The translations under genes were made by a program, and so were the position numbers. The notes under the pieces are model-generated. The model made no database searches. It had not been told where the DNA came from and saw nothing but the letters and a program-made list of their open reading frames with translations. Positions 11,933-24,907 of a DNA stretch of 64,000 nt are shown piece by piece. This DNA comes from Mycobacterium simiae (GTDB lineage Bacteria; Actinomycetota; Actinomycetes; Mycobacteriales; Mycobacteriaceae): positions 4,030,001-4,094,000 of the forward strand of contig NZ_AP022568.1 in assembly GCF_010727605.1 (NCBI RefSeq), read 5' to 3'. Position 1 is the first letter of the stretch. Each line of letters begins with the position of its first letter.

Positions 11933-14293
11933 GTGACAACTTCGGCCAGCAAGCTGCGCCTTCCACTGTCCATCGAGGACGTAGCCAAGCGGGTCTTCCT
12001 GGGCAAGCCGCTGATCACCGAGAACTTGCGGGCCGAACGGCTGTCGAATCCCGTTGCGCTGGGCGCCCTTTCACCCGACGCCATCTCGTCGACGGCGTAC
12101 GGTCCCGAGCAGATCCTGATCGAACTACTGCCCGCGGCGGGCCTGGCCGCGTTTGCGCTGCTGTTGCCGATCACCGGCGTCATCCTGCTGATCCTGGTGC
12201 TGGTCGCCGCGTCGTACCGGCAGGTTGTGATGACCTACACCCGGGCCGGCGGGTCCTACATCGTGGCCCGGGAGAATTTCGGACCGCGCGTGGCCCAGGT
12301 CGCGGCCGCAGCGCTGTTGATCGACTACGTGGTCACGGTCGCTGTGCAGTCGGCGGCCGGCACGGTGGCGGTGGTGTCGGCGATCCCGTCGCTGGGGCCG
12401 CACAGTCTGCAGATCACGGTCGGGGTGGTGCTGATCATCTGCTTTTTGAATCTGCGCGGGCTGAAGGAAGCGGGACTGCCGTTCGCGCTGGCCACCTACT
12501 TCTTCATCGTCATGGTCGGCCTGACGATCATCGTCGGCGTCGTGCGCGCGCTCGCGGGCGATCTGCCCGTCTACGATCCCGCGCACCTGCCCGGAACGGT
12601 GCCCGTGCACAAGGCCGACGGTCTCGTGATGGGTGCGACGGTGTTGACGCTGCTGCGCTCGTTCGCCAACGGCGGGTCATCCCTGACCGGCGTCGAAGCC
12701 ATCTCCAATACCGTCGATGTGTTCCGGAAACCACAGGGCCGCAATGCTCGTCGCGTACTGACCACGATGGCGACGGTCCTCGGACTGTTACTGGCCGGGG
12801 TCGCCTACCTGGCTTATGAGACCCACGCCACGCCGTACCGGAGCGAATATCCCTCGGTGCTGTCGCAGATAGCCCGCGCGGTGTTCGGCGGCGGGACCGT
12901 CGGCAACATCTTTTACATCCTGGTGCAGACGGCGACGGCGGCCATCCTGTTCACCGGGGCGAACACCAGTTTCAACGGGTTCCCGGCGCTGGCAAGCTTC
13001 GTCGCCGAAGACCGGTTTCTGCCCCGGCAGTTGATGAAACGCGGTCACCGCCTGGTGTTTTCGAACGGGATCATCACGCTCACCGCCTTGTCGGTAGTTC
13101 TGTTGCTGGCCACCGGCGGCTCGGTCAACGCGCTGGTCCCGTTCTATGCGATCGGCGTGTTCACCGGATTCTCCATGGCCGGTTACGGCATGACCAAACA
13201 CCATCTGACACATCGCGAGGCCGGCTGGCGAGGCCGGCTGGCCATCAATCTGTCGGCGGGAATCCTGTCCACGATCGTGGTCGGCATCTTCGCGGTCGCG
13301 AAGTTCACCGAGGGTGCCTGGCTGGTCGTGGTGGTCTTTCCCATCCTGGTATTTCTGCTGATCCGGTTGAACCGCGAATATCGGGCCGAGGCAGCGATTC
13401 TGGAGATGTTCCGCACCGACCGCCCCGATCTGGTGAAGTACGCGCGGCACAAAGTTTTCGTGTTCGTCAACTCGGTCGATCTCGCCGTGATCGAAGCGCT
13501 GCGGTATGGCAAGGGATTGCGGGCCGACGAGATGATCGCGGTGCACTTCATGGTCGACGCGGCACTGGCCACGCAGATCCGCAAGCGGTGGGACCACTTC
13601 GAACTCGACACCCGGCTGCGGGTGGTGGACTGCCCGGACCGGCGCATCATCCGGGCCGCGCAACTGTTCATCGCCAAAGCGCGCGACGAGCATCGGGACA
13701 CCAACGTGACCGCGCTGCTACCCCGGCGTACCTACAACCCGTTGGTGGGCCGGCTGCTGCACGACCGCACCGCGGACAAGATCGCCCGGGCGGTCAGCAT
13801 GATTCCCGATGCGGCGGCCACGATCGTTCCCTACGACGTTCAAACCCGCATCGAAGAGGCCTACCCGGAACGGTTCGAACAACGCATCATCCGCGAGCTC
13901 GAACGACTCGGTGAATGGGTGACGCGCGGCGAGGACCAGGAGGTCGATGCCTACGAGCACCCCGACCCGTCTCGGTCGGTACTCACCGTGACGGGCCTGA
14001 TACCGGGACGCCGCGCGACGTTCGAAGGACGCGTCAACGAAGTGGAGGACACCACCAAGGGCAGGCGCACCCTGCGCACGGTTCTCGTCGGTGACCACAG
14101 CGGTGAGATCGAAGTGATCTTCCGGTCCGGCCACGGCGGGGCCGACATCCAGCCCGGTCAGCTGTTGCGCATCACCGGCAAGCCCAAGCAGAGCGGCAAC
14201 CGGCCGATGACGATGGTCGACCCGATGTACCACATCGTCGAAGACCCAGCCCGGGCCGGCAGGCCCGGCCCGGCAGAGGGCAGCAAAAGCTGA
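11933..14293 (+). CDS. KimA-like APC permease with C-terminal OB-fold domain
   Basis: This is a large amino acid-polyamine-organocation permease of about 786 residues. The N-terminal half has around twelve hydrophobic segments and the motif LSPDAISSTAYGPEQIL, typical of the KimA/YdaO potassium-uptake group. A cytosolic region follows from about residue 480. The last ~100 residues (LTVTGLIPGRRATFEGRVNEV through LLRITGKPKQSG) resemble a nucleic-acid-type OB fold. The GTG start has a GGGTGAGGA ribosome site; an ATG at 11888 is possible but weaker. Potassium as substrate and any second-messenger control are inferred from the family. No c-di-AMP riboswitch was seen in the 100 bases upstream. Confidence 0.8.
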   Translation: MTTSASKLRLPLSIEDVAKRVFLGKPLITENLRAERLSNPVALGALSPDAISSTAYGPEQILIELLPAAGLAAFALLLPITGVILLILVLVAASYRQVVMTYTRAGGSYIVARENFGPRVAQVAAAALLIDYVVTVAVQSAAGTVAVVSAIPSLGPHSLQITVGVVLIICFLNLRGLKEAGLPFALATYFFIVMVGLTIIVGVVRALAGDLPVYDPAHLPGTVPVHKADGLVMGATVLTLLRSFANGGSSLTGVEAISNTVDVFRKPQGRNARRVLTTMATVLGLLLAGVAYLAYETHATPYRSEYPSVLSQIARAVFGGGTVGNIFYILVQTATAAILFTGANTSFNGFPALASFVAEDRFLPRQLMKRGHRLVFSNGIITLTALSVVLLLATGGSVNALVPFYAIGVFTGFSMAGYGMTKHHLTHREAGWRGRLAINLSAGILSTIVVGIFAVAKFTEGAWLVVVVFPILVFLLIRLNREYRAEAAILEMFRTDRPDLVKYARHKVFVFVNSVDLAVIEALRYGKGLRADEMIAVHFMVDAALATQIRKRWDHFELDTRLRVVDCPDRRIIRAAQLFIAKARDEHRDTNVTALLPRRTYNPLVGRLLHDRTADKIARAVSMIPDAAATIVPYDVQTRIEEAYPERFEQRIIRELERLGEWVTRGEDQEVDAYEHPDPSRSVLTVTGLIPGRRATFEGRVNEVEDTTKGRRTLRTVLVGDHSGEIEVIFRSGHGGADIQPGQLLRITGKPKQSGNRPMTMVDPMYHIVEDPARAGRPGPAEGSKS

Positions 14294-14340
14294 CCGTTAA
14301 CGTGAAGACAGTTGTACCGGCGTTCGTGGGGAGGACAGCA

Positions 14341-15627
14341 GTGAAGCGACTGGGAGCCGTGCTGGCGTCCATAGTGGGTCTGGCCTTCACCGCAAACGGG
14401 TATCGGCCGTTGGGCAAGGGCGGATACGGCTCGGCTTTCTCGTTCGCCTACGGCGTCGTGGCGTCGGAGTTACCGATGCAGTCGCTCGGCGTCCAATTCA
14501 CCACGCTGGCCGCGCTGTCGCGCCGGTTGCCCGCGCGGACACTGAAATTCACCTGGCTGCTGTCGGCGGTGTCGTGGCTGGGCCTGCTGGGTCTGCGGCA
14601 TTTCGGGCACCAGGCCAACGAGCCGCTGACGGCGGCGCTGGACGCCGGCTTGGGCGCCGACCGGCGGCGGGAATCGGGTGATCTGTGGAAGCGCCCGGCG
14701 CCGGGCGGCGCGACGGCGAAGAAGCCCGGCGCGGCGCGGATGCTGCGCATCTACCGGGACTACGCCCACGACGGCGATATCAGTTACGGGGAGTGCGGTT
14801 CGCGCAACCAGCTGGACATCTGGCGTCGGCCCGACCTCGACCGCAATGGCCGGGCGCCGGTGCTGCTCCAGGTCCCCGGCGGCGCCTGGATGGTCGGAAA
14901 CAAACGCGGCCAAGCACATCCGCTGATGAGCCATCTGGCCGAACTGGGCTGGATCTGCGTCGCGATCAACTACCGGCTCAGCCCCCGGTCCACCTGGCCC
15001 GACCAGATTGTCGACGTCAAACGTGCGATCGCGTGGACGAAGGAGCACATCGCGGAGTACGGCGGTGATCCGGAGTGGCTTGCGATCACCGGTGGTTCGG
15101 CTGGCGGGCACCTGACCGCGTTGGCCGCGCTGACCCCCAACGATCCGCAGTTTCAACCGGGGTTCGAAGACGCCGATACCCGCGTGGACGTCGCGGTGCC
15201 GTTCTACGGCGTCTACGACTTCAACGCCACCGGCTCCGCGGTGCACCCGTTGATGGCGGCCATGGTTGCCAAGAATGTGTTCAAGGTCAGTCGCACCGAG
15301 ATCGCCGACCCGTTCCGCGCCGCGTCACCGATCACCTACGTCCGCCCGGACGCCCCGCCGTTTTTCCTGCTGCACGGAACCAATGACACGCTGGTTCCGA
15401 TCGAGCAGGCCCGTAGTTTTGTGGGGCGGCTGCGCGAGGTCAGCCAACAGCCGGTCGTGTACGCCGAATTGCCTTGGGCGCAGCATGCGTTCGATATCTT
15501 CGGATCCGCCCGCGCGGCGCACGCCGCGGTCGCGGTCGAACAGTTCCTGGCCGAAATGTATGTGCGCCGCGGGCCGCTGCACCCGAGGTCGACGATGGCC
15601 GCCGCGACCGGGACAGTGACACCGTAG
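14341..15627 (+). CDS. LipC/LipQ-type esterase
   Basis: This alpha/beta-hydrolase of the hormone-sensitive-lipase-like mycobacterial Lip group has about 428 residues. The nucleophile elbow is GGSAGG, the acid is in HGTNDTLVP and the catalytic His is in WAQHAFD. The oxyanion-hole motif reads VPGGAW instead of the usual HGGG/HGGA, as in the LipC-type subgroup. The N-terminal ~110 residues are hydrophobic and may anchor it in the membrane. The GTG at 14341 has a GGGGAGGA ribosome site six bases upstream; a GTG at 14302 in the same frame is poorer. It sits just after the permease and converges on the Sap-like gene. Substrate unknown, probably an acyl ester. Confidence 0.82.
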   Translation: MKRLGAVLASIVGLAFTANGYRPLGKGGYGSAFSFAYGVVASELPMQSLGVQFTTLAALSRRLPARTLKFTWLLSAVSWLGLLGLRHFGHQANEPLTAALDAGLGADRRRESGDLWKRPAPGGATAKKPGAARMLRIYRDYAHDGDISYGECGSRNQLDIWRRPDLDRNGRAPVLLQVPGGAWMVGNKRGQAHPLMSHLAELGWICVAINYRLSPRSTWPDQIVDVKRAIAWTKEHIAEYGGDPEWLAITGGSAGGHLTALAALTPNDPQFQPGFEDADTRVDVAVPFYGVYDFNATGSAVHPLMAAMVAKNVFKVSRTEIADPFRAASPITYVRPDAPPFFLLHGTNDTLVPIEQARSFVGRLREVSQQPVVYAELPWAQHAFDIFGSARAAHAAVAVEQFLAEMYVRRGPLHPRSTMAAATGTVTP

Positions 15628-15629
15628 CG

Positions 15630-16316
15630 TCATAGGCTGCGCGTTCCGACAAAGAGCAGAAGACAACCAGCGGCGGCCAGCGCGCCGGCCACCTCGACGC
15701 GCCGGCGCGAGCGGATCCAGATCTGCAGTGCAACCATGCCGGCGCGGGTCTGCCGGGGCGCCATCAGGTAGGCCAGCAGCGGGATCTCCACCAGCGCGAA
15801 CGCGACTACGTGGAACATCACCAGCGCGCCGAGCCGCGTCATGGCCGCGGTACCCGAGGCGACGATGGCGGCCAGCGCAGCCAGGTAATCGACGGACGGC
15901 AGCGCAATCCCTAGACCGGCCGCACCGGCCACCCACAGCGACCGCCCATGCAGCAGCCGTCGGGAAAACTTGCCCAAGCCGTGCTGCTCACGCAGGTCGA
16001 GTCGGTCGGCTTCCCGGCGCTCCCCGACCTTGCCCCGCCACCAGACCTGCGCGCTCAGCACGACCGCGACCAGTAGGGCCATCGCACCGATCAGGATCTG
16101 CAGTTTGGGCAAGGTGATGTGCGACGAATCGAGCAGTCGGCGCTGCAGACCGAACACCACGGCCAAGCCCACAGTCATACCCATCGCGAATCCGCCGCAC
16201 AGGAATGCGGACAGCTGCAGCACTGGCCGGGGGCGGTTGAGCATCAACACCGTCATGCCGATCCGGAATGGCTCGACGCTCATGGCAACGGCCATGAGCA
16301 GCAGGGTGATCCACAT
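15630..16316 (-). CDS. Sap/GAP-family lipid-addressing membrane protein
   Basis: This 228-residue polytopic membrane protein belongs to the GAP/SfLAP family (PF11139), by its N-terminal pattern of VEPFRIGM and RPRPVLQL. In mycobacteria the members Gap and Sap (sulfolipid-1-addressing protein) help move glycopeptidolipids or sulfolipid to the surface. About six hydrophobic segments are separated by a basic, charged loop at roughly residues 95-120. It follows the stf0-cysD-cysNC-YeiH run on the same strand after a 75-base gap, which suggests a role in placing a sulfated glycolipid. That role is inferred. Confidence 0.8.
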   Translation of the reverse strand: MWITLLLMAVAMSVEPFRIGMTVLMLNRPRPVLQLSAFLCGGFAMGMTVGLAVVFGLQRRLLDSSHITLPKLQILIGAMALLVAVVLSAQVWWRGKVGERREADRLDLREQHGLGKFSRRLLHGRSLWVAGAAGLGIALPSVDYLAALAAIVASGTAAMTRLGALVMFHVVAFALVEIPLLAYLMAPRQTRAGMVALQIWIRSRRRVEVAGALAAAGCLLLFVGTRSL

Positions 16317-16391
16317 ACCGGTCGTCCACGTTACCGCCCGGCCGGCCGGCGGGCGCCTCGGGCCCGCTGAAGCTTGTGAAGCCCTTTGCAG

Positions 16392-17522
16392 CTAGCTGGT
16401 TACGCCCCAATGGAATACACGCGATGTCAGCAACACAATGCCGAGGGAGACGGTCGCGACCACGGTCAGGCCGAGGACAGCAACGACGAGCGGGCGCCAT
16501 CCGGTGCGCGCGATTTGGCGGAAGTCGGTGTTGAGACCGACGCCAGCGAAGGTGAGCAGGAAGGCCCATTTCGACACGTTCGCCAGATTGGCGGTTTGCC
16601 CCTTGGTGAGCCAGCCCGCGGTGGCGATGGCAGACACCGCAAGAAACCCGAGCACGAACTTGGGGAACTGCTGCCAAACGAACGCGGCCTTGGCTGGTGC
16701 GCCGGCCGCGATTTCGTCGGCCTGCCCGCGGGCGGCCCAGTACAGTGCGAAGGCCAGCACCACGAACCCGATCAGCGCGTTGCGGGTCGACTTGACCAGG
16801 ACCGCGATCTTGCCGGCCTGATCGGAATACAGATAACCGGTCGCGGTTGTCTCGGCGGTGTTGTCCACCGACAGGCCCGCCCACAAACCGAATTCATGGT
16901 CGGTCAGTCCGATCGCGTGTCCCAACGGCGGCAACACGAACAACGACACGGCGCCCAAGGCCAGGATGGCCGCGATCGCGTAGCTGACGTCGGAGTTGCG
17001 GGCCCGGATGGCGCCCTTGGCGGCCACGATCGCCGAAACCCCACAGATCGAGGTGCCGATCGCCAACAGCGAGCCCAGTTTGCCGGACAACCCGAGGGCC
17101 CGCGCGACGACGATGATGACGGTGCCCGCGATCGTCATGTCCACCAGAATCTGAACCAGGCTGATGGCGCCGAGCTTGGCGATGTCGCCCAGCACGAATC
17201 GCGCGCCCAAGACCACGATGCCGACCTTGAGCCAGAACTCGTAGGTCTGCACACCCGGGCGGAAAATTCGGTGCAGTCCGACGGTGTTGGTGATGAGCAG
17301 CCCAATCACGAGCCCAATCACGATGGCCCACAACACGTATTCGATGTCGGGCACCCGCCAGTGCTCATGCTTGGCCAGCGTGTTCCACCAGATCTGGGTG
17401 TATTTGCCCAGCAGCCCGACCGCGATCAGCAACACGACGCCGGGCAGGTATTCCAGCGGTTGCCGGCTGGTGAATGCCGGTTCGTCCAGGACCTCTTCGG
17501 GTTCGGCTTTGGTGGTACTCAC
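16392..17522 (-). CDS. YeiH/UPF0324 family transporter (putative sulfate-linked)
   Basis: This integral membrane protein of about 376 residues and around ten hydrophobic helices belongs to the YeiH (UPF0324) family, often annotated as a putative sulfate exporter. Family stretches such as [14 protein letters not shown] and [17 protein letters not shown] are clear. The GTG at 17522 lies four bases after the stop of a 38-codon frame, so the two are probably coupled; the frame remains open to 17579 without a better start. Its place behind cysD-cysNC fits export or homeostasis of sulfate or a related anion, but the substrate is inferred from position and family naming only. Confidence 0.82.
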
Positions 17523-17526
17523 GGCG

Positions 17527-17643
17527 TCACCACGGAATCTTCGGCAGCGCGTCGGCCACCGCCAACGCGGCGATCGCACCGGCGACCAGCGTCGCCCACC
17601 AGTCCACCGACACCGAGCCGAGCCGCTCGCGCCAATCAGTCAC
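17527..17643 (-). CDS. 38-residue membrane microprotein between cysNC and YeiH
   Basis: This GTG-started frame encodes 38 residues: [20 protein letters not shown], then a hydrophobic Ala-rich stretch, ending ADALPKIPW. Residues 16-31 form one membrane helix, with a charged N-terminus and a Trp/Pro C-terminus. It is read in a frame different from its neighbours, with high third-position GC. Its TGA precedes the YeiH GTG by four bases (TGACGCCGTG). There is no strong ribosome site, so it may be read from the cysNC transcript or from a leaderless one. A subunit or regulator role for the transporter is a guess from position. Confidence 0.6.
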
Positions 17644-17698
17644 GCACGCATGGTTGCCCGCACGGCGCCGGCGGCCAAGTTATTGGATCGCGGTGAAT

Positions 17699-19627
17699 CT
17701 AGGTGCGGCGCGGGCTGCGCTGATTGAGCAGCTCGATGACCTGCGCGACCAGGTCGTCGAGGTCGGCACCGGTGGTGTCGATCACCAGGTCGGCGTCCTC
17801 GGGCGGCTCGTAGGGCGCGTCGACGCCGGTGAGTCCCTTCAATTCGCCGCTGCGGGCCCGCGCGTAGAGGCCCTTCGGGTCGCGCCGTTCGCATTCTTCC
17901 AACGAGGTCGCCACGTGCACCTCGATGAAGGGCAGCTTGGCGGCGTCGTTGAGCTCGCGGGCGATCTCGCGGTCGGACTTCAGCGGCGAGACGAGCGATG
18001 CCAGCGCGACCACGCCAGCGTCGGCCAGCAGGCGAGTCAAATGACCGACGCGCCGGATGTTTTCGGTGCGGTCACCGGGGGAGAAGCCAAGATCGTCAGA
18101 CAAGCCGTGGCGCAAGTTGTCGCCGTCAAGCAGATAGGCCACCCGGCCGGACTCGACGAGTGCACGCTCGACGGCCACCGCGACCGTCGACTTCCCCGAT
18201 GCGGGCAGCCCAGTGAACCAGATCGTGGCGCCCGGCTGCCCGGTGGCCTGCCAGCGGTGGGCACGGTCCAACGCCGACGGATGCCAGCGGATGTCGGTGC
18301 GGGCATGGCTGCCCGGCTTCACCTCACGGGCCTCGATGATGGTTCCGGCGCCGACGGTGTCGTTGGTCGTCTCGTCGATCAGAATGAACGCGCCGCTGTC
18401 GCGGTTGTCGGTGTAGCTGTCGGCGATGACGACGCTGCTGGTTCGCAGGGTGAGGGTGCCGATGTCGTTGAGCGCCAGGTCAACTGGCTGATCTAACTCT
18501 TCGAGCGTTTCGGGGTCCAGCCGGCTGTGTAGCTCCTGCACGGTGGCCCGCACGGTGTTGGTGGTCTGTTTGAGCGCCAACCGATCGCCGGCCCGCAGCG
18601 GGGCGTCGACGAACCAGCACACGGTTGCGTCGAGTTCGCGGGCCAGCACCGGCAGGACGGCGTCGTCGGCCCCGCTGACCAGCACATCGCCCCGGCCGAC
18701 GTCGATGTCGTCGGCCAGCTCGATCGAAACTGACAGCGGCGCAACAGCTGTGGTGCGTTCGTCGTCGAGGGTGTCCAGCGTTGTCACCGTCGAGCGGGTG
18801 CCCGAGGGCAGCGAGATCACCGGATCGCCGACGGACAGCGTGCCCGCGGCCAGCCGCCCGGTGTAGCGGCGGCGGGTGTCGGCGGTGGGCCGCGAAACCC
18901 ATTGCACGGGCAGCCGCAGCCGTGCCGGCTCGGCCTGCGGGGCGGCTAGCTCGACGCTTTCGAGGTAGTCCAGCAGCGTGGGTCCGCGGTACCACGGTGT
19001 GCGCTCGGAGCGATGCACGACGTTGTCGCCCAGCTTGGCCGCGAGCGGAATCACCGTGATGTCGATTTCACCCAACCGCGCCGCCAATGTCTGCACCTGC
19101 TGTTGTACTTCGGCAAATTTCGACTCGTCGAAGTCGACCAGATCGATCTTGTTGACCGCGGCGACAAAGTGCTTGATGCCCAACAGCTTTGCAATGCGGG
19201 CATGGCGGCGGGTCTGCCGCAACACCCCGGCGCGGGCGTCCACCAGCAGGATGGCCACGTGCGCGTTGGAGGCGCCGGTGAACATGTTGCGGGTGTAGCG
19301 CTCGTGACCGGGGGTATCGGCCAGGATGTAGCTTCGGGTTTGGGTGGAGAAGAATCGGTAGGCAACGTCGATGGTGATGCCCTGTTCACGTTCGGCGCGC
19401 AGCCCGTCGGACAACGCCGCCAGGTCGGCGACGCCTTCCTCGTCGGTGACCGCTTCCAGGTGGTCCAACGGCAGGCTGTCGGTATCGTGCAGCAACCGTC
19501 CGATCAGGGTGCTTTTCCCGTCGTCGACGGAGCCGGCCGTTGCGATCCGCAGCAGCTGGCGGGTCAAACCCCTGGGCGGCAACGTCTTTGGGGCGGCATG
19601 CGAAGCCGCCTGCTCGGTGCCGGTCAT
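17699..19627 (-). CDS. cysNC: Bifunctional sulfate adenylyltransferase GTPase/APS kinase CysNC
   Basis: This 642-residue fusion drives sulfate activation. CysN hydrolyses GTP to power APS formation with CysD, and CysC phosphorylates APS to PAPS. The GTPase domain shows AGSVDDGKSTLIGRLL (about residues 30-45), DTPGHERYTRNM and NKIDLVD. The kinase domain has WFTGLPASGKSTVAVAVE (about 465-482) and DGDNLRHGL. The fused form is as in M. tuberculosis Rv1286. Its ATG shares one base with the cysD stop (TGATG). PAPS is the donor needed by the sulfotransferase two genes upstream. Confidence 0.95.
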   Translation of the reverse strand: MTGTEQAASHAAPKTLPPRGLTRQLLRIATAGSVDDGKSTLIGRLLHDTDSLPLDHLEAVTDEEGVADLAALSDGLRAEREQGITIDVAYRFFSTQTRSYILADTPGHERYTRNMFTGASNAHVAILLVDARAGVLRQTRRHARIAKLLGIKHFVAAVNKIDLVDFDESKFAEVQQQVQTLAARLGEIDITVIPLAAKLGDNVVHRSERTPWYRGPTLLDYLESVELAAPQAEPARLRLPVQWVSRPTADTRRRYTGRLAAGTLSVGDPVISLPSGTRSTVTTLDTLDDERTTAVAPLSVSIELADDIDVGRGDVLVSGADDAVLPVLARELDATVCWFVDAPLRAGDRLALKQTTNTVRATVQELHSRLDPETLEELDQPVDLALNDIGTLTLRTSSVVIADSYTDNRDSGAFILIDETTNDTVGAGTIIEAREVKPGSHARTDIRWHPSALDRAHRWQATGQPGATIWFTGLPASGKSTVAVAVERALVESGRVAYLLDGDNLRHGLSDDLGFSPGDRTENIRRVGHLTRLLADAGVVALASLVSPLKSDREIARELNDAAKLPFIEVHVATSLEECERRDPKGLYARARSGELKGLTGVDAPYEPPEDADLVIDTTGADLDDLVAQVIELLNQRSPRRT

Positions 19628-20541
19628 CAGAAGTACCCCTCTCGCTTGCGGTCTTCCATGGCCGCGGCCGAGGTCCGGTCGTCCGCCCGCGTCTCGCCGC
19701 GCTCGGACACCGTGGCCGCCGAGATTTCGCGGATCACGCCTTCAATGTCGGTCGCCCGGGACCGCACCGCCCCGGTGATGGTGAGGTCGCCGACGGTGCG
19801 GTAGCGCACCCACTGCGTCGCCGCGGTTTCACCGTCCTGCGGGCCGGCGTATTGCGAGACGGCCAGCAGGATTCCGTCGCGTTCGAACACCTCACGCTCG
19901 TGCGCGTAGTAAATCGACGGTATTTCAAGGTCTTCCAGCTCGATGTAACGCCACACGTCCAGTTCGGTCCAGTTGCTCAGCGGGAACACCCGGACCTGTT
20001 CACCCTTCTTGATCCGGCCGTTGTACAGCGACCAGGGCTCCGGGCGCTGCGCACGGGGATCCCACTGGCCGAACTCGTCGCGGAAGCTCAGGATGCGTTC
20101 CTTGGCGCGGGCCCGTTCCTCGTCGCGACGCGCACCACCGAACGCCGCGTCGAAGCCGCCGGCCTCGAGCGCGTCGAGCAGGGTGCGGGTCTGCGCCCGG
20201 TTACGCGAGGCGTTGGGGCCGGGGTCGGGCACCCGGCCGTTGTCGATCGACTCCTGCACCGAGGCGACGATCAGCTTGTGACCCTGGCCGGTGACTCTGC
20301 GGTCGCGAAACTCGATGACCTCGTCGAAGTTGTGGCCGGTGTCCACGTGCAGCACCGGAAACGGCAGTGGTAGCGGCCGAAAGGCTTTCTCCGCCAAGCG
20401 AAGTAACACAATCGAGTCCTTGCCCGCGGAAAACAGCAGGACGGGCCGTTCCAGCTCGGCGACCACCTCGCGAATGATGTGCACCGCTTCTGCTTCCAGC
20501 AGCCGCAATTCGTCGACGCGGCGGGTCTGGGTGGCGGTCAT
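19627..20541 (-). CDS. cysD: Sulfate adenylyltransferase subunit 2 CysD
   Basis: CysD catalyses adenylation of sulfate to APS with ATP and works as a heterodimer with CysN. It is a 304-residue PAPS-reductase-fold protein. The P-loop-like [16 protein letters not shown] is at about residues 33-48, and the conserved [16 protein letters not shown] and [12 protein letters not shown] segments are present. The ATG overlaps the stf0 stop codon as ATGA. The frame is open further upstream, but that part lies inside stf0. The overlap ties APS/PAPS supply directly to the sulfotransferase. Confidence 0.95.
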
Positions 20542-21341
20542 GTCGGTAATCCCTCTTTCTCGGCGTCGGCCCGATACCGGTCCACCCATTCGTCGGAACG
20601 TTTGTCGGCTTGACGTTCCAGCACCGGCCGCGGGGCCAGCCGTGGATCGAGGCCCAACGTCTCGAGAATGGTGCCCACCACCTCGGTGAGGTTGCGCCAC
20701 AACACCGGATACGGGACTTCCATCGGTTTGACGTCTTCCGCGGCGAACCAGCTCTGCCAGCCCTTCTCCTGCTCGCGCAGCATCGTGACCACGTGCGCGA
20801 TGGCACCGGCGTGGTAGGTGGCGCGCGCATCGCGGGCCGGATCGGGCCGGCCCCGCCAGACCCGGGTCTGCACCGCACGCCAGAACGACACCGCCTGCGA
20901 GACGACGTCGGGCCGGTGGATGTGGATGAACAGCGGCTCCTCACCGACGACGTCGCGGATGGCGGCCAGCAGTCCCTCGCCCGACCGGTTCGGCAGTTCG
21001 CTCGCGCGATTCAACAGCAGCGGCGTCTGATTCCACATCAATTTGCCACCCCAGACACCGTTGGGCGTCCGGCCGACGGTGCGGATGTAGTCGCGCCAGA
21101 TCTCGGCGGGTGCCAGGTCGGGCTTTCCCGCATCGAGGGGATCGAGCAGCTGCAGGATCGACTCGTCCTCGACCCCGGCGAACCACTCGCGGGGCTGCGG
21201 GGCCTGGCTGGTGCCGGGCAGGTATTGGAAGAACTCCTGCGGCTCGCCGGCGACGCCGGTCGCCCGCAGCGATTCGACGAGCAATGTGCTGCCGCTGCGC
21301 TGGGAAGCCAGCACCAGATACGACGACGGACGGTGAGTCAC
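20538..21341 (-). CDS. stf0: Trehalose 2-sulfotransferase Stf0
   Basis: Stf0 transfers sulfate from PAPS to the 2-position of trehalose, giving trehalose-2-sulfate, the core of sulfolipid-1 in M. tuberculosis. The 267-residue sequence closely resembles known mycobacterial Stf0. The PAPS 5'-phosphosulfate loop [11 protein letters not shown] is at residues 11-21. [11 protein letters not shown] and GGKLMWNQ, and the [19 protein letters not shown] stretch with its 3'-phosphate-binding residues, are intact. It is the first gene of the run stf0-cysD-cysNC, overlapping cysD by four bases. Confidence 0.93.
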
Positions 21342-21586
21342 TACCGCAGACTAACCGGCCGGAAATGCGGTGCAACACGAGCAATTACGTTCACGATGAT
21401 TCCAAAGTCGGTTTGCTGTGTTCAGCGGCCCGACACAGCCGCGCAGACGTCAGCGCCTATCCTGGAAATCATTGACCGCTCCTCATCCTGGATTTGCTCC
21501 CGCAGGCCTCACACTGCGCATCGCCGAGTGCCCGTTTGCCGCACCGGTCAAACCCGGGCGCGGCACAGGATTTTTGGCAGGCACCG

Positions 21587-23191
21587 CTAGTCGTCGTCGA
21601 GAACCCGTAAGCCCAGCGAGAACAGCAGTCGCACTTCGGGATCGGCCAGTGAGGCAGCCAACAATTTCTCGATACGGCGCACCCGGTAGCGAACCGTGTT
21701 GGGATGCACCTGCAACCATGCGGCGGCCAGGCCGACGTCGCCGAAACTGTCCAGGTACGCCCGTAGGGTCTCGACCAGCACCGGATCACGCGCCCGCAGC
21801 TCGCCGAGCCGCGGATCGACCAACCGTTCGTCCGAGCCGATCAGGGTGACTATTTCGTCGAGCAAGACGGTGGTTCGCGCCTCCGCCAGCGAGGTTACCC
21901 GGCCGATCGAAACCGGATGTCGCGCAGCGCTGTCCAGCACGCGATCGACCTCGGCGCGCGCCGCCGCGACACCCGCCAGGCCGTCGGCCGGTACCGCGAT
22001 CACCGCCCGCAGCTCGACACCGAGTTCGGTGCGCAGCGCGCCGATCGTGCCGCGCACCCACGACGTCACCGACCGGGCTGTCGAGGTCTGTGGCAGCAAG
22101 ACATAAGTGCGCGAGGCCTGCGAGGCTACCTGTGCGTCCGGACGAAAAGCGCTGGCGCTCAATGCGATCACATCGGCGAGCCGGGTATGCCCGGGTTGGG
22201 CGTCGGTGGTGGCATAGCCGATCAGGGTGGCGCCGCGGTCGGCGGGCAGGCCCAGCTCGCGAGTGATCGCGCCGACGTCGGCGGGGTCGCCGTCGGTCAG
22301 GCCGAGGAGTTGTTGGACGCGCCGCGCGTGTGTCGACGGCCGGGCGGCGAGCCGGGACATGATGCGGGCGGCCAGGACCGCCGCGCCACGCAGGATCTCC
22401 TCGGCGTCGTCGGCCAACGGCTGCGATCCCTGCTGCACCCAGATGGTGCCGACGAACTCCGGCATTCGGCGCGCGCCGGTCGAGGGATGGTGAATGCCGA
22501 TCGCCAGGCGCGGGCGCAACCCCAATTCGGGGCGCGCGTCGATGTGTACCACCTCGCCACCAGCCCGCAGCGCGTCGAAGATGCCCCACTGGTTGATCCA
22601 CGTTAGATGCTCAGCCGGTCCGGCCCGGCCCAGGATGGACAGCCGGCGCAGCTCGTCAGCTTCGTCGTTGGAGGCCGAGTAGGCAAGCACATGCGACTGA
22701 GCGTTTTCGATGCTGACCATGCCGTGGATGCGGTCGGCCAGCGACTGCGCCAGGCCGAACAGATCGGTTCCGGAATCCTCCGTCGGGTCGGTTCGGTCGC
22801 CATGGTGCTCCAAAACGTGATTGACCAACTGATAGAGCCGCTCCCACCGGGCCTGCGGCTCCACCGCGACCACCGCCGTCCCGACCGCGGCGGCCTTGGC
22901 CACCAACGCCTCGGCCGGCTTCTTGGCGAAGATCGCCACGGGCACCCGATCCTGCGCCTGCTTGTCGATCCACCGCAGCGCCTCGGCGTCGCCGACGCCC
23001 AGCAGGAAGAAGACGTCGGCCGAGCTTGCCGCGGCGGCCAAGCCGAGCCGGACGTCGTCGGAATCGATCAGCGCCGCCGAGCGCACCGGCAGATCCAGGC
23101 CGCGTGGGGCCCAACCGTCCGGGACCAGGCTGACCAGCGTCGTATCGAGCGCCAGCAACAATTGGCCGAGTCCGACCCCAGGCACCCGCAT
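21587..23191 (-). CDS. PucR/CdaR-type proline regulator (PruC-like)
   Basis: This 534-residue transcription factor is homologous to Rv1186c, reported as PruC, the proline-responsive regulator of the adjacent catabolic genes. The N-terminal ~160 residues look like a PucR N-terminal domain, a GAF-like region follows, and the C-terminal helix-turn-helix (PucR_C_HTH) is at about residues 480-525: DVGLAAAWLQVHPNTVRYRVRRIEKLL. The ATG at 23191 gives the normal length, and the frame upstream enters the pruA promoter. It is divergent from pruA by 84 bases containing two TTGTCCGAT repeats. Confidence 0.88.
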   Translation of the reverse strand: MRVPGVGLGQLLLALDTTLVSLVPDGWAPRGLDLPVRSAALIDSDDVRLGLAAAASSADVFFLLGVGDAEALRWIDKQAQDRVPVAIFAKKPAEALVAKAAAVGTAVVAVEPQARWERLYQLVNHVLEHHGDRTDPTEDSGTDLFGLAQSLADRIHGMVSIENAQSHVLAYSASNDEADELRRLSILGRAGPAEHLTWINQWGIFDALRAGGEVVHIDARPELGLRPRLAIGIHHPSTGARRMPEFVGTIWVQQGSQPLADDAEEILRGAAVLAARIMSRLAARPSTHARRVQQLLGLTDGDPADVGAITRELGLPADRGATLIGYATTDAQPGHTRLADVIALSASAFRPDAQVASQASRTYVLLPQTSTARSVTSWVRGTIGALRTELGVELRAVIAVPADGLAGVAAARAEVDRVLDSAARHPVSIGRVTSLAEARTTVLLDEIVTLIGSDERLVDPRLGELRARDPVLVETLRAYLDSFGDVGLAAAWLQVHPNTVRYRVRRIEKLLAASLADPEVRLLFSLGLRVLDDD

Positions 23192-23192
23192 G

Positions 23193-23233
23193 TTGTCCGA
23201 TCTTACTATCTGCCGGTGGACAGTTTGTCCGAT
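23193..23233. promoter_or_regulatory. Paired TTGTCCGAT repeats in pruC-pruA promoter
   Basis: TTGTCCGAT occurs at 23193-23201 and again at 23225-23233 in the same orientation, 32 bases start to start, about three helical turns. The first copy begins one base outside the PruC-type start codon. Two exact nine-mers in an 84-base divergent promoter suggest binding sites for the regulator. No experimental consensus was available to compare. Confidence 0.5.
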
Positions 23234-23275
23234 AAGCCAACAGTTGGGATACCCATCGCGAGGATCCTGAACAAC

Positions 23276-24907
23276 ATGGACGCCATCAGCCAGGTACCCC
23301 TGCCGGCCAACGAGCCGGTCCATGACTACGCCCCCCACTCGCCGGAACGTTCCCGGCTGCGCACCGAGCTTGCCGCACTAGCCGGCCATCCGATCGACCT
23401 GCCGCACGTGATTGGCGGTAAACACCGCATGGGCGACGGTGCGCGCATCGACGTCGTCCAACCGCACCGGCACGCCGCGACGCTGGGCACCCTGACCAAC
23501 GCCGGGAACGCCGACGCGGCCGCGGCCGTCGAGGCGGCGATGGCCGCCAAACACGACTGGGCGGCGCTGCCGTTCGACGAGCGCGCGGCGGTGTTCCTGC
23601 GCGCCGCCGACCTGCTGGCCGGCCCGTGGCGGGAGAAGATCGCGGCCGCGACGATGCTCGGCCAGTCCAAGTCGGCCTACCAGGCCGAGATCGACTCGCC
23701 CTGCGAACAAGTCGACTTCTGGCGTTTCAACGTCGCCTTCGCCCGCCAGATCCTGGCCCAGCAGCCGATCAGCGGGCCGGGGGAGTGGAACCGCAGCGAG
23801 TACCGCCCGCTGGACGGCTTCGTCTACGCGATCACGCCGTTCAACTTCACCTCGATCGCCGGCAATCTGCCGACGGCACCCGCGCTGATGGGCAACACCG
23901 TGGTGTGGAAGCCGTCGATCACCCAGACGCTGTCGGCGTATCTGACCATGCAGCTGCTCGAGGCCGCCGGACTGCCGCCCGGCGTGATCAACCTGGTCAC
24001 CGGCGACGGCTTCGCGGTCTCCGAGGTGGTGCTGGCCGACCCGCGACTGGCCGGCATCCACTTCACCGGGTCAACGGCCACCTTCCAGCATCTGTGGCAG
24101 CAGGTGGGCACCAATATCGGCCGCTACCATAGCTATCCGCGCCTGGTCGGCGAGACGGGTGGCAAAGACTTCGTGGTCGCCCACACCTCGGCACGCCCGG
24201 ATGTGTTGTGTACCGCCCTGATTCGCGGCGCCTTCGACTATCAGGGTCAGAAATGCTCGGCCGCATCCCGGGCGTTCGTTCCGCATTCGGTGTGGCAGCA
24301 CATGGGCGACGACTTCCTGGGCGCGGCGGCCGGGCTGAGCTACGGCGACGTCACCGATTTCACCAACTATGGTGGCGCGCTGATCGACCGTCGCGCCTTC
24401 ACCAAGAACGTCAACGCCATCGAGCGGGCCAAAGGCGCGGCCGGGGTCACCATCGCGGTGGGCGGCGAGTATGACGACAGCGTCGGCTATTTCGTGCGGC
24501 CGACCGTGCTGCTGTCCGACGACCCGACCGACGAAGCGTTCTGCACCGAGTACTTCGGGCCGCTGTTGTCGGTGCACATCTATCCCGACGACCACTACGA
24601 ACGCATCCTCGACGTGATCGACACCGGGTCGCCCTACGCGCTGACCGGTGCGGTGATCGCCGACGACCGTCGGGCCGTGCTGACCGCCCAGGAACGGTTG
24701 CGGTTCGCGGCCGGTAACTTCTACGTCAACGACAAGCCGACCGGAGCGGTCGTCGGCCGCCAGCCGTTCGGGGGCTCGCGCGGCTCGGGCACCAACGACA
24801 AGGCCGGATCGGTGCTGAACATGTTGCGCTGGACGTCGGCCCGGACCATCAAGGAGACCTTCGTCCCGGCCACCCAGTACACCTACCCGCACATGGGGTC
24901 CGACTAA
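23276..24907 (+). CDS. pruA: 1-pyrroline-5-carboxylate dehydrogenase
   Basis: This enzyme oxidises P5C (glutamate semialdehyde) to glutamate with NAD+, the second step of proline catabolism. It is an ALDH-superfamily protein of 543 residues, equal to Rv1187 (rocA). The NAD-binding stretch ITPFNFTSIAGNL, the general-base region LVGETGGKDFVVAH and the catalytic Cys in DYQGQKCSAASR are present. The ATG at 23276 is chosen because the longer frame runs through the pruC gene. The stop TAA shares a base with the proline dehydrogenase ATG (TAATG), allowing coupled translation and possibly substrate channelling. Confidence 0.94.
   Translation: MDAISQVPLPANEPVHDYAPHSPERSRLRTELAALAGHPIDLPHVIGGKHRMGDGARIDVVQPHRHAATLGTLTNAGNADAAAAVEAAMAAKHDWAALPFDERAAVFLRAADLLAGPWREKIAAATMLGQSKSAYQAEIDSPCEQVDFWRFNVAFARQILAQQPISGPGEWNRSEYRPLDGFVYAITPFNFTSIAGNLPTAPALMGNTVVWKPSITQTLSAYLTMQLLEAAGLPPGVINLVTGDGFAVSEVVLADPRLAGIHFTGSTATFQHLWQQVGTNIGRYHSYPRLVGETGGKDFVVAHTSARPDVLCTALIRGAFDYQGQKCSAASRAFVPHSVWQHMGDDFLGAAAGLSYGDVTDFTNYGGALIDRRAFTKNVNAIERAKGAAGVTIAVGGEYDDSVGYFVRPTVLLSDDPTDEAFCTEYFGPLLSVHIYPDDHYERILDVIDTGSPYALTGAVIADDRRAVLTAQERLRFAAGNFYVNDKPTGAVVGRQPFGGSRGSGTNDKAGSVLNMLRWTSARTIKETFVPATQYTYPHMGSD

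Follow-up and report, generated by a model that had tools for sequence, protein, structure and literature searches.

The sulfotransferase Stf0 is known for starting a virulence lipid of Mycobacterium tuberculosis. In the parts of the published accounts covered here, the sulfolipid-1 pathway of that species starts with Stf0 and has a Sap-family protein (PMC3141025, PMC4183827), and the text covered on Rhodococcus qingshengii IGTS8 describes a cluster cysN2C-cysD2-stf0 in which CysD2 and Stf0 rise on dibenzothiophene (CysN2C was seen, not quantified) and for which sulfite detoxification is proposed by the authors as one of the advantages (PMC8557817). For membrane proteins of the YeiH type, the covered portion of a Salmonella study reports that yeiH is needed for sulfite resistance, its deletion giving sulfite-sensitive cells, with the mechanism left open by the authors and some orthologues annotated as putative sulfate exporters (PMC12880088). 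Here we evaluated a 64,000-nucleotide stretch of Mycobacterium simiae (contig NZ_AP022568.1, positions 4,030,001 to 4,094,000; hereafter “the window”) for a six-gene locus that an original prediction, made from the letters of the DNA, had interpreted as a cassette for making and placing a sulfated trehalose glycolipid. The predicted layout was borne out, with stf0, cysD, cysNC, a 38-codon microprotein frame, a transporter gene and a Sap-family gene following one another in that order on the minus strand. We interpret these genes, at a probability of about 0.5, as an operon dedicated to sulfation that has acquired a distinct transport unit of two genes, the carrier of that unit exporting sulfite or sulfate.

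To characterize the sulfation part, we compared its three proteins with family models and solved structures. The trehalose 2-sulfotransferase family protein Stf0 (20538-21341, minus strand) scores above the NCBI trehalose 2-sulfotransferase equivalog NF047724 (453.6 bits, cut-off 400) and matches PF09037 (355.5 bits), and it gives one full-length match over residues 1-266 to the solved Stf0 structure PDB 1tex (501.9 bits), which we take to be that of M. smegmatis, with no difference in kind seen. Residue 36 of its translation is Glu, presumably the proposed catalytic base, and the nearest named Stf0 among the best 80 of 308 loci is that of M. sherrisii (96%). The ATP sulfurylase small subunit CysD (19627-20541, minus strand) exceeds TIGR02039 (433.7 bits, cut-off 396.6), and CysNC (17699-19627, minus strand), the large subunit fused to adenosine 5'-phosphosulfate (APS) kinase, exceeds NF004035 (780.8 bits, cut-off 715) as well as the CysN and CysC models TIGR02034 and TIGR00455. 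Given these family assignments and the coupled-looking junctions described below, the claim that synthesis of 3'-phosphoadenosine 5'-phosphosulfate (PAPS) and its use by Stf0 sit together stands.

Whole-genome searches of 16 relatives separated two classes of CysNC, with a housekeeping copy about 50% identical to the window's in all 16 and a cassette-type second copy, 85-97% identical, in seven. Against PDB 4bzp and 4rfv (“bifunctional enzyme CysN/CysC”, which we take to be M. tuberculosis CysNC), the window protein scores 184 and 180 bits versus 322 and 349 bits for the housekeeping CysNC of M. sherrisii, so on these scores it does not come out as the M. tuberculosis orthologue. Judged by these identity classes and structure scores, which rule out the housekeeping set, the cassette cysD and cysNC are a second sulfate-activating set dedicated to this locus. 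M. tuberculosis CysNC is the other, housekeeping paralogue, and therefore the original contrast with a scattered arrangement in M. tuberculosis compares unlike genes. Separately, 5 of the 16 relatives, all lacking the cassette copy (G004, G006, G008, G009, G014), have a match to the APS kinase portion on its own, at 47-50% identity, and one of these five stretches contains stops.

Both predicted junctions are present in the sequence, as a 4-nt ATGA overlap between stf0 and cysD and a TGATG between cysD and cysNC. Among the 34 named loci that carry all three genes, an in-frame cysD start within the 4-nt overlap is available in 31, the others being L001 (the closest relative), L010 and L051, while the TGATG string stands at the cysD stop in every one and was taken as the cysNC start by the start picker in 29. 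These junctions look conserved more than chance would allow, which would suit translational coupling.

The 38-residue microprotein (17527-17643, minus strand) has one predicted membrane span, as judged by eye, and its conserved core is formed by the last 27 residues (17530-17610; consensus SxDWWATxVAGVIxALAVADVLPKIPW), with D14, W16, A17, L27, A28, L33, P34 and W38 invariant in 29 aligned sequences. This core lies just upstream of a class-A PF03601 transporter in 84 of 85 transporter entries, which include the window itself and repeat some genomes (74 distinct cores), and in the sole exception, L109, the transporter match is interrupted by a stop. Across the 74 distinct cores, the ratio of nonsynonymous to synonymous differences (pN/pS) is 0.331, compared to 1.28 and 1.49 in the shifted frames, which were counted solely on stop-free pairs. 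A chance frame is ruled out by this conservation and ratio, and the 38-codon frame is, by its pattern of substitution, a selected microprotein that evolves at the protein level. We also rejected P0082 as a natural microprotein-carrier fusion, as the portion corresponding to the microprotein drifts out of the conserved frame halfway along.

We also assessed where the pair occurs apart from the sulfation genes. Nineteen of the 85 entries (L082-L100) possess microprotein and transporter but show no stf0 or cysDNC within the stretch examined, as do two further loci (L134, L135), and the microprotein also stands upstream of the carrier in L149-L153; no copy was found alongside any of 14 other PF03601 proteins, which share 26-35% identity with the window carrier. 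Because it occurs without stf0 and cysDNC and precedes the transporter in nearly every entry, the microprotein belongs with the PF03601 transporter and not, as first proposed, with the sulfation genes, a membership that the loci lacking stf0 and cysDNC rule out.

Beyond these loci, profile searches (E <= 0.01) of 251 family genomes detected the microprotein in 14, where one hit is weak, incomplete and interrupted by a stop and has no transporter in its vicinity; of 296 phylum genomes, 3 gave a match. Database searching returned 243 relatives at E <= 0.01, with Nocardia species among the 120 matches listed; none of the 120 carries a Pfam domain, and those bearing a name are nearly all “hypothetical” or “uncharacterized protein”, one being named an RDD family protein. 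A literature search, with most subscription papers outside its reach, found no account of the microprotein-transporter pair. We regard the pair and its attachment to the sulfation core as a new element whose microprotein is so far undescribed and would act as a subunit or regulator of the carrier.

The carrier itself (16392-17522, minus strand) is a multi-span protein that covers the whole PF03601 profile (1-304 of 304; 298.8 bits, cut-off 24.5) and falls below the cut-off of the YeiH model TIGR00698 (119.5 bits versus 232.6), as do all eight other mycobacterial PF03601 proteins scanned, such that the label “YeiH-type”, on these profile scores, is right in a wide sense only. The start best backed by homologues is a GTG at 17522, 4 nt after the microprotein stop, so of the predicted coupling to the microprotein the close spacing stands and an overlap does not. 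The predicted fold of the carrier is NhaP/NapA-like, with most of the model aligning with solved antiporters of the cation/proton antiporter and anion transporter (CPA/AT) type, and also matches citrate (CitS) and bile-acid transporters; no solved relative was found by sequence for the transporter or the Sap protein at E <= 0.001, nor a Foldseek match in PDB at E <= 0.001. Salmonella YeiH is likewise a YeiH-type membrane protein, and its likeness to Na+/H+ antiporters is reported in the covered part of that study, the window carrier differing in lying under the TIGR00698 cut-off and in having a microprotein (PMC12880088). As observations on single loci, the transporter gene is broken in two otherwise typical loci (L109, L133), and genes for a major facilitator superfamily protein, a sulfatase and a formylglycine-generating enzyme directly precede the microprotein-transporter pair in L093 and L100.

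We then evaluated the arrangement across the 80 named loci, which are the best 80 of 308, so that rates hold for close relatives; Sap was counted at >=50% identity, and contig ends limit some of the states scored as absent. All six genes occur in just 10 loci, with a PPE gene separating cysNC from the microprotein in one of them (L035), 8 loci lack only Sap and 16 have only stf0-cysD-cysNC, while the remainder comprise stf0-microprotein-transporter (19), the same with Sap (9), stf0 alone (15), stf0 with Sap (2) and one locus cut after cysD. Thus, once gene order is compared across genomes, the six genes are a minority state and not a fixed unit. The block stf0-microprotein-transporter is kept without cysDNC in 28 of the 80, and 19 of these loci lie at a second place on the chromosome. 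In 34 of the 80 no transporter was found next to stf0, contig ends cutting some of these loci.

The sulfation genes reach further, with stf0 above the NF047724 cut-off in 107 of 148 genus genomes sampled and 79 of 251 family genomes. All 17 divergent loci (stf0 55-68% identical to the window's), drawn from the best 30 matches of 81 genomes hit and placed outside the genus by stf0 identity, possess adjoining cysD and cysNC. The stf0-cysD-cysNC core is therefore old, not new, and of a known kind in print for Rhodococcus, where in IGTS8 stf0 likewise adjoins the genes for a second CysD and for a CysNC fusion; there, as far as the text covered goes, YeiH lies at a distant gene number (peg446), a sulfatase gene adjoins by gene number, and neither the microprotein nor a Sap protein is mentioned (PMC8557817).

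Trees inferred from short proteins by rapid searches, in which many branches are weak, show the state “beside stf0/cysDNC” changing once on the transporter tree and “cysDNC in between” five times, and on the stf0 tree 9 changes for cysDNC and 15 for the transporter. The single change on the transporter tree suggests that the unit joined the stf0 locus once and that the cassette then decayed in parts; loss rather than gain of cysDNC is the direction we prefer, although the counts do not prove it. In 99 stf0 entries for which both states were scored, the transporter accompanies 28 of the 44 that have cysDNC and 38 of the 55 that lack it, revealing no positive association.

The second chromosomal place (L005 and 18 further named loci, all without Sap) has surroundings of its own, with Mce/YrbE genes upstream in 16 of 19, a PALP gene downstream in 15 (the other four end first), and in between, on the other strand, a class-V aminotransferase in 12, accompanied in 9 of those 12 by a type 2A encapsulin gene (PF19307). 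The profiles here gave PALP, hexapeptide and Aminotran_5, which by family and context we take to be cysK, cysE and a cysteine desulfurase, the cysE-like gene lying downstream as well. Another variant, L081, possesses cysD-cysNC-microprotein-transporter with no stf0 in front, and the stf0 of that genome lies on another contig (L136) and is only 71% identical.

To weigh what these genes do together, we start from the preferred reading, in which the second-copy CysD and CysNC would, on family membership, make PAPS and Stf0 would transfer its sulfate to trehalose, yielding trehalose-2-sulfate. The transport unit, comprising the PF03601 carrier of NhaP/NapA-like predicted fold and the one-span microprotein encoded just before it, would have joined the stf0 locus once, with cysDNC later lost several times while stf0, microprotein and carrier were retained. 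Export of sulfite or sulfate, both small sulfur oxyanions, is the most likely task of the carrier, a substrate and direction that we infer, such that the cassette would activate, transfer and vent sulfate, with the Sap-family gene a looser attachment. We favor oxyanion efflux, with product export second, because of Salmonella YeiH, the Rhodococcus sulfite-detoxification suggestion and the sulfatase and formylglycine-enzyme genes just upstream of the pair at 2 of 21 non-stf0 loci. Several points weigh against it, including that most neighbors scanned at the non-stf0 loci have no clear sulfur theme, that 17 of the 45 high-scoring carriers tallied by hand in 148 genus genomes are found at a distance from stf0 and 5 belong to stf0-less genomes, that a carrier under the YeiH cut-off makes transfer of the Salmonella result weak, that one joining in an ancestor says less about function than recurrent joining would, and that Rhodococcus YeiH, in the text covered, was not detected in the proteome, counter to joint induction there (PMC8557817). 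Export of trehalose-2-sulfate itself by the microprotein-carrier unit is a less probable account that would explain why stf0, microprotein and carrier persist without cysDNC, including at the second place, and why the fold matches CitS and bile-acid transporters, which carry organic anions; it fits poorly with the carriers away from stf0 or in stf0-less genomes, with the many loci where no transporter was found beside stf0, and with the action of Salmonella YeiH on sulfite stress in the covered text (PMC12880088). We would give similarly modest credence to mere synteny, in which the sulfation operon, itself old, came to lie beside the transport unit and a Sap paralogue once and all three decay independently, as one joining on the carrier tree against the many changes on the stf0 tree and the lack of a positive association of cysDNC with the transporter would have it, but the intact stf0-microprotein-carrier block at the second place and the short gaps, with no terminator-like site between genes by a simple consensus that is weak for mycobacteria, speak for more than neighborhood.

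The lipid account involves the Sap-family protein (15630-16316, minus strand; 75 nt after the transporter), which matches PF11139 at 190.6 bits (cut-off 35). Because each of 8 relatives has 3-7 PF11139 matches per genome, membership alone is no mark of a sulfolipid-addressing protein, and the “placing” role is not supported; a Sap gene lies beside stf0 in 21 of the 80 named loci. As predicted, no PapA/Pks acyltransferase lies in the cassette, nor was any acyltransferase found in the scanned flanking genes, acyl genes elsewhere in the genome not having been searched for, and the cassette thus differs from the sulfolipid-1 pathway, as covered, in having neither acyltransferase nor MmpL8 (PMC3141025, PMC4183827). 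That all six genes make and address a sulfated trehalose glycolipid with acyl groups from elsewhere is hence improbable and the least favored account: Stf0 and a Sap-family gene are present, and papA2 is reported, in the covered text, for Mycobacterium sp. UM_CSW (PMC4818103), whose locus (L022) has the full six-gene order, yet glycolipid remains an unproven product and free trehalose-2-sulfate the simplest one. For the microprotein, we doubt that it is a cis-acting leader, whether a nascent peptide or a coupling device controlling carrier translation, rather than a subunit. The conserved last 27 residues behind a variable N-terminus, ending exactly at the stop and directly before the carrier, would fit such a leader, as would a TGA stop in 72 of 74 cores, whose TGGTGA could be a ribosome site or start, but the block resembles a membrane helix with conserved flanks, the RNA fold of the window microprotein is ordinary (z -0.70), and two loci use TAA. 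Tentatively, and extending the preferred efflux reading, class-A PF03601 carriers might depend on the one-span microprotein (core DWWAT...LPKIPW), either as a subunit or as a gate on translation, with Stf0 sulfation and microprotein-YeiH efflux serving as two outlets for excess sulfite or sulfate and not as a lipid pathway.

Around the locus, simple-consensus scans of 15500-21800, weak for mycobacteria, detected nothing resembling a sigma-70 promoter and two sites resembling terminators, both inside genes (3.3 in shuffles), and no Rfam match occurs in 14000-24000. A 436-codon open frame (16386-17696, plus strand) antisense to the transporter and microprotein is probably a shadow frame of high G+C, and a PucR-type regulator gene (HTH_30; 21587-23338, minus strand) precedes stf0 in the same orientation and is close to it in many relatives too.

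For these bacteria, the spread of Stf0 over most of the genus genomes sampled, together with its own PAPS synthesis in every divergent locus, points to an older use of sulfated trehalose, and the microprotein-transporter pair is a concrete candidate for sulfite or sulfate handling.

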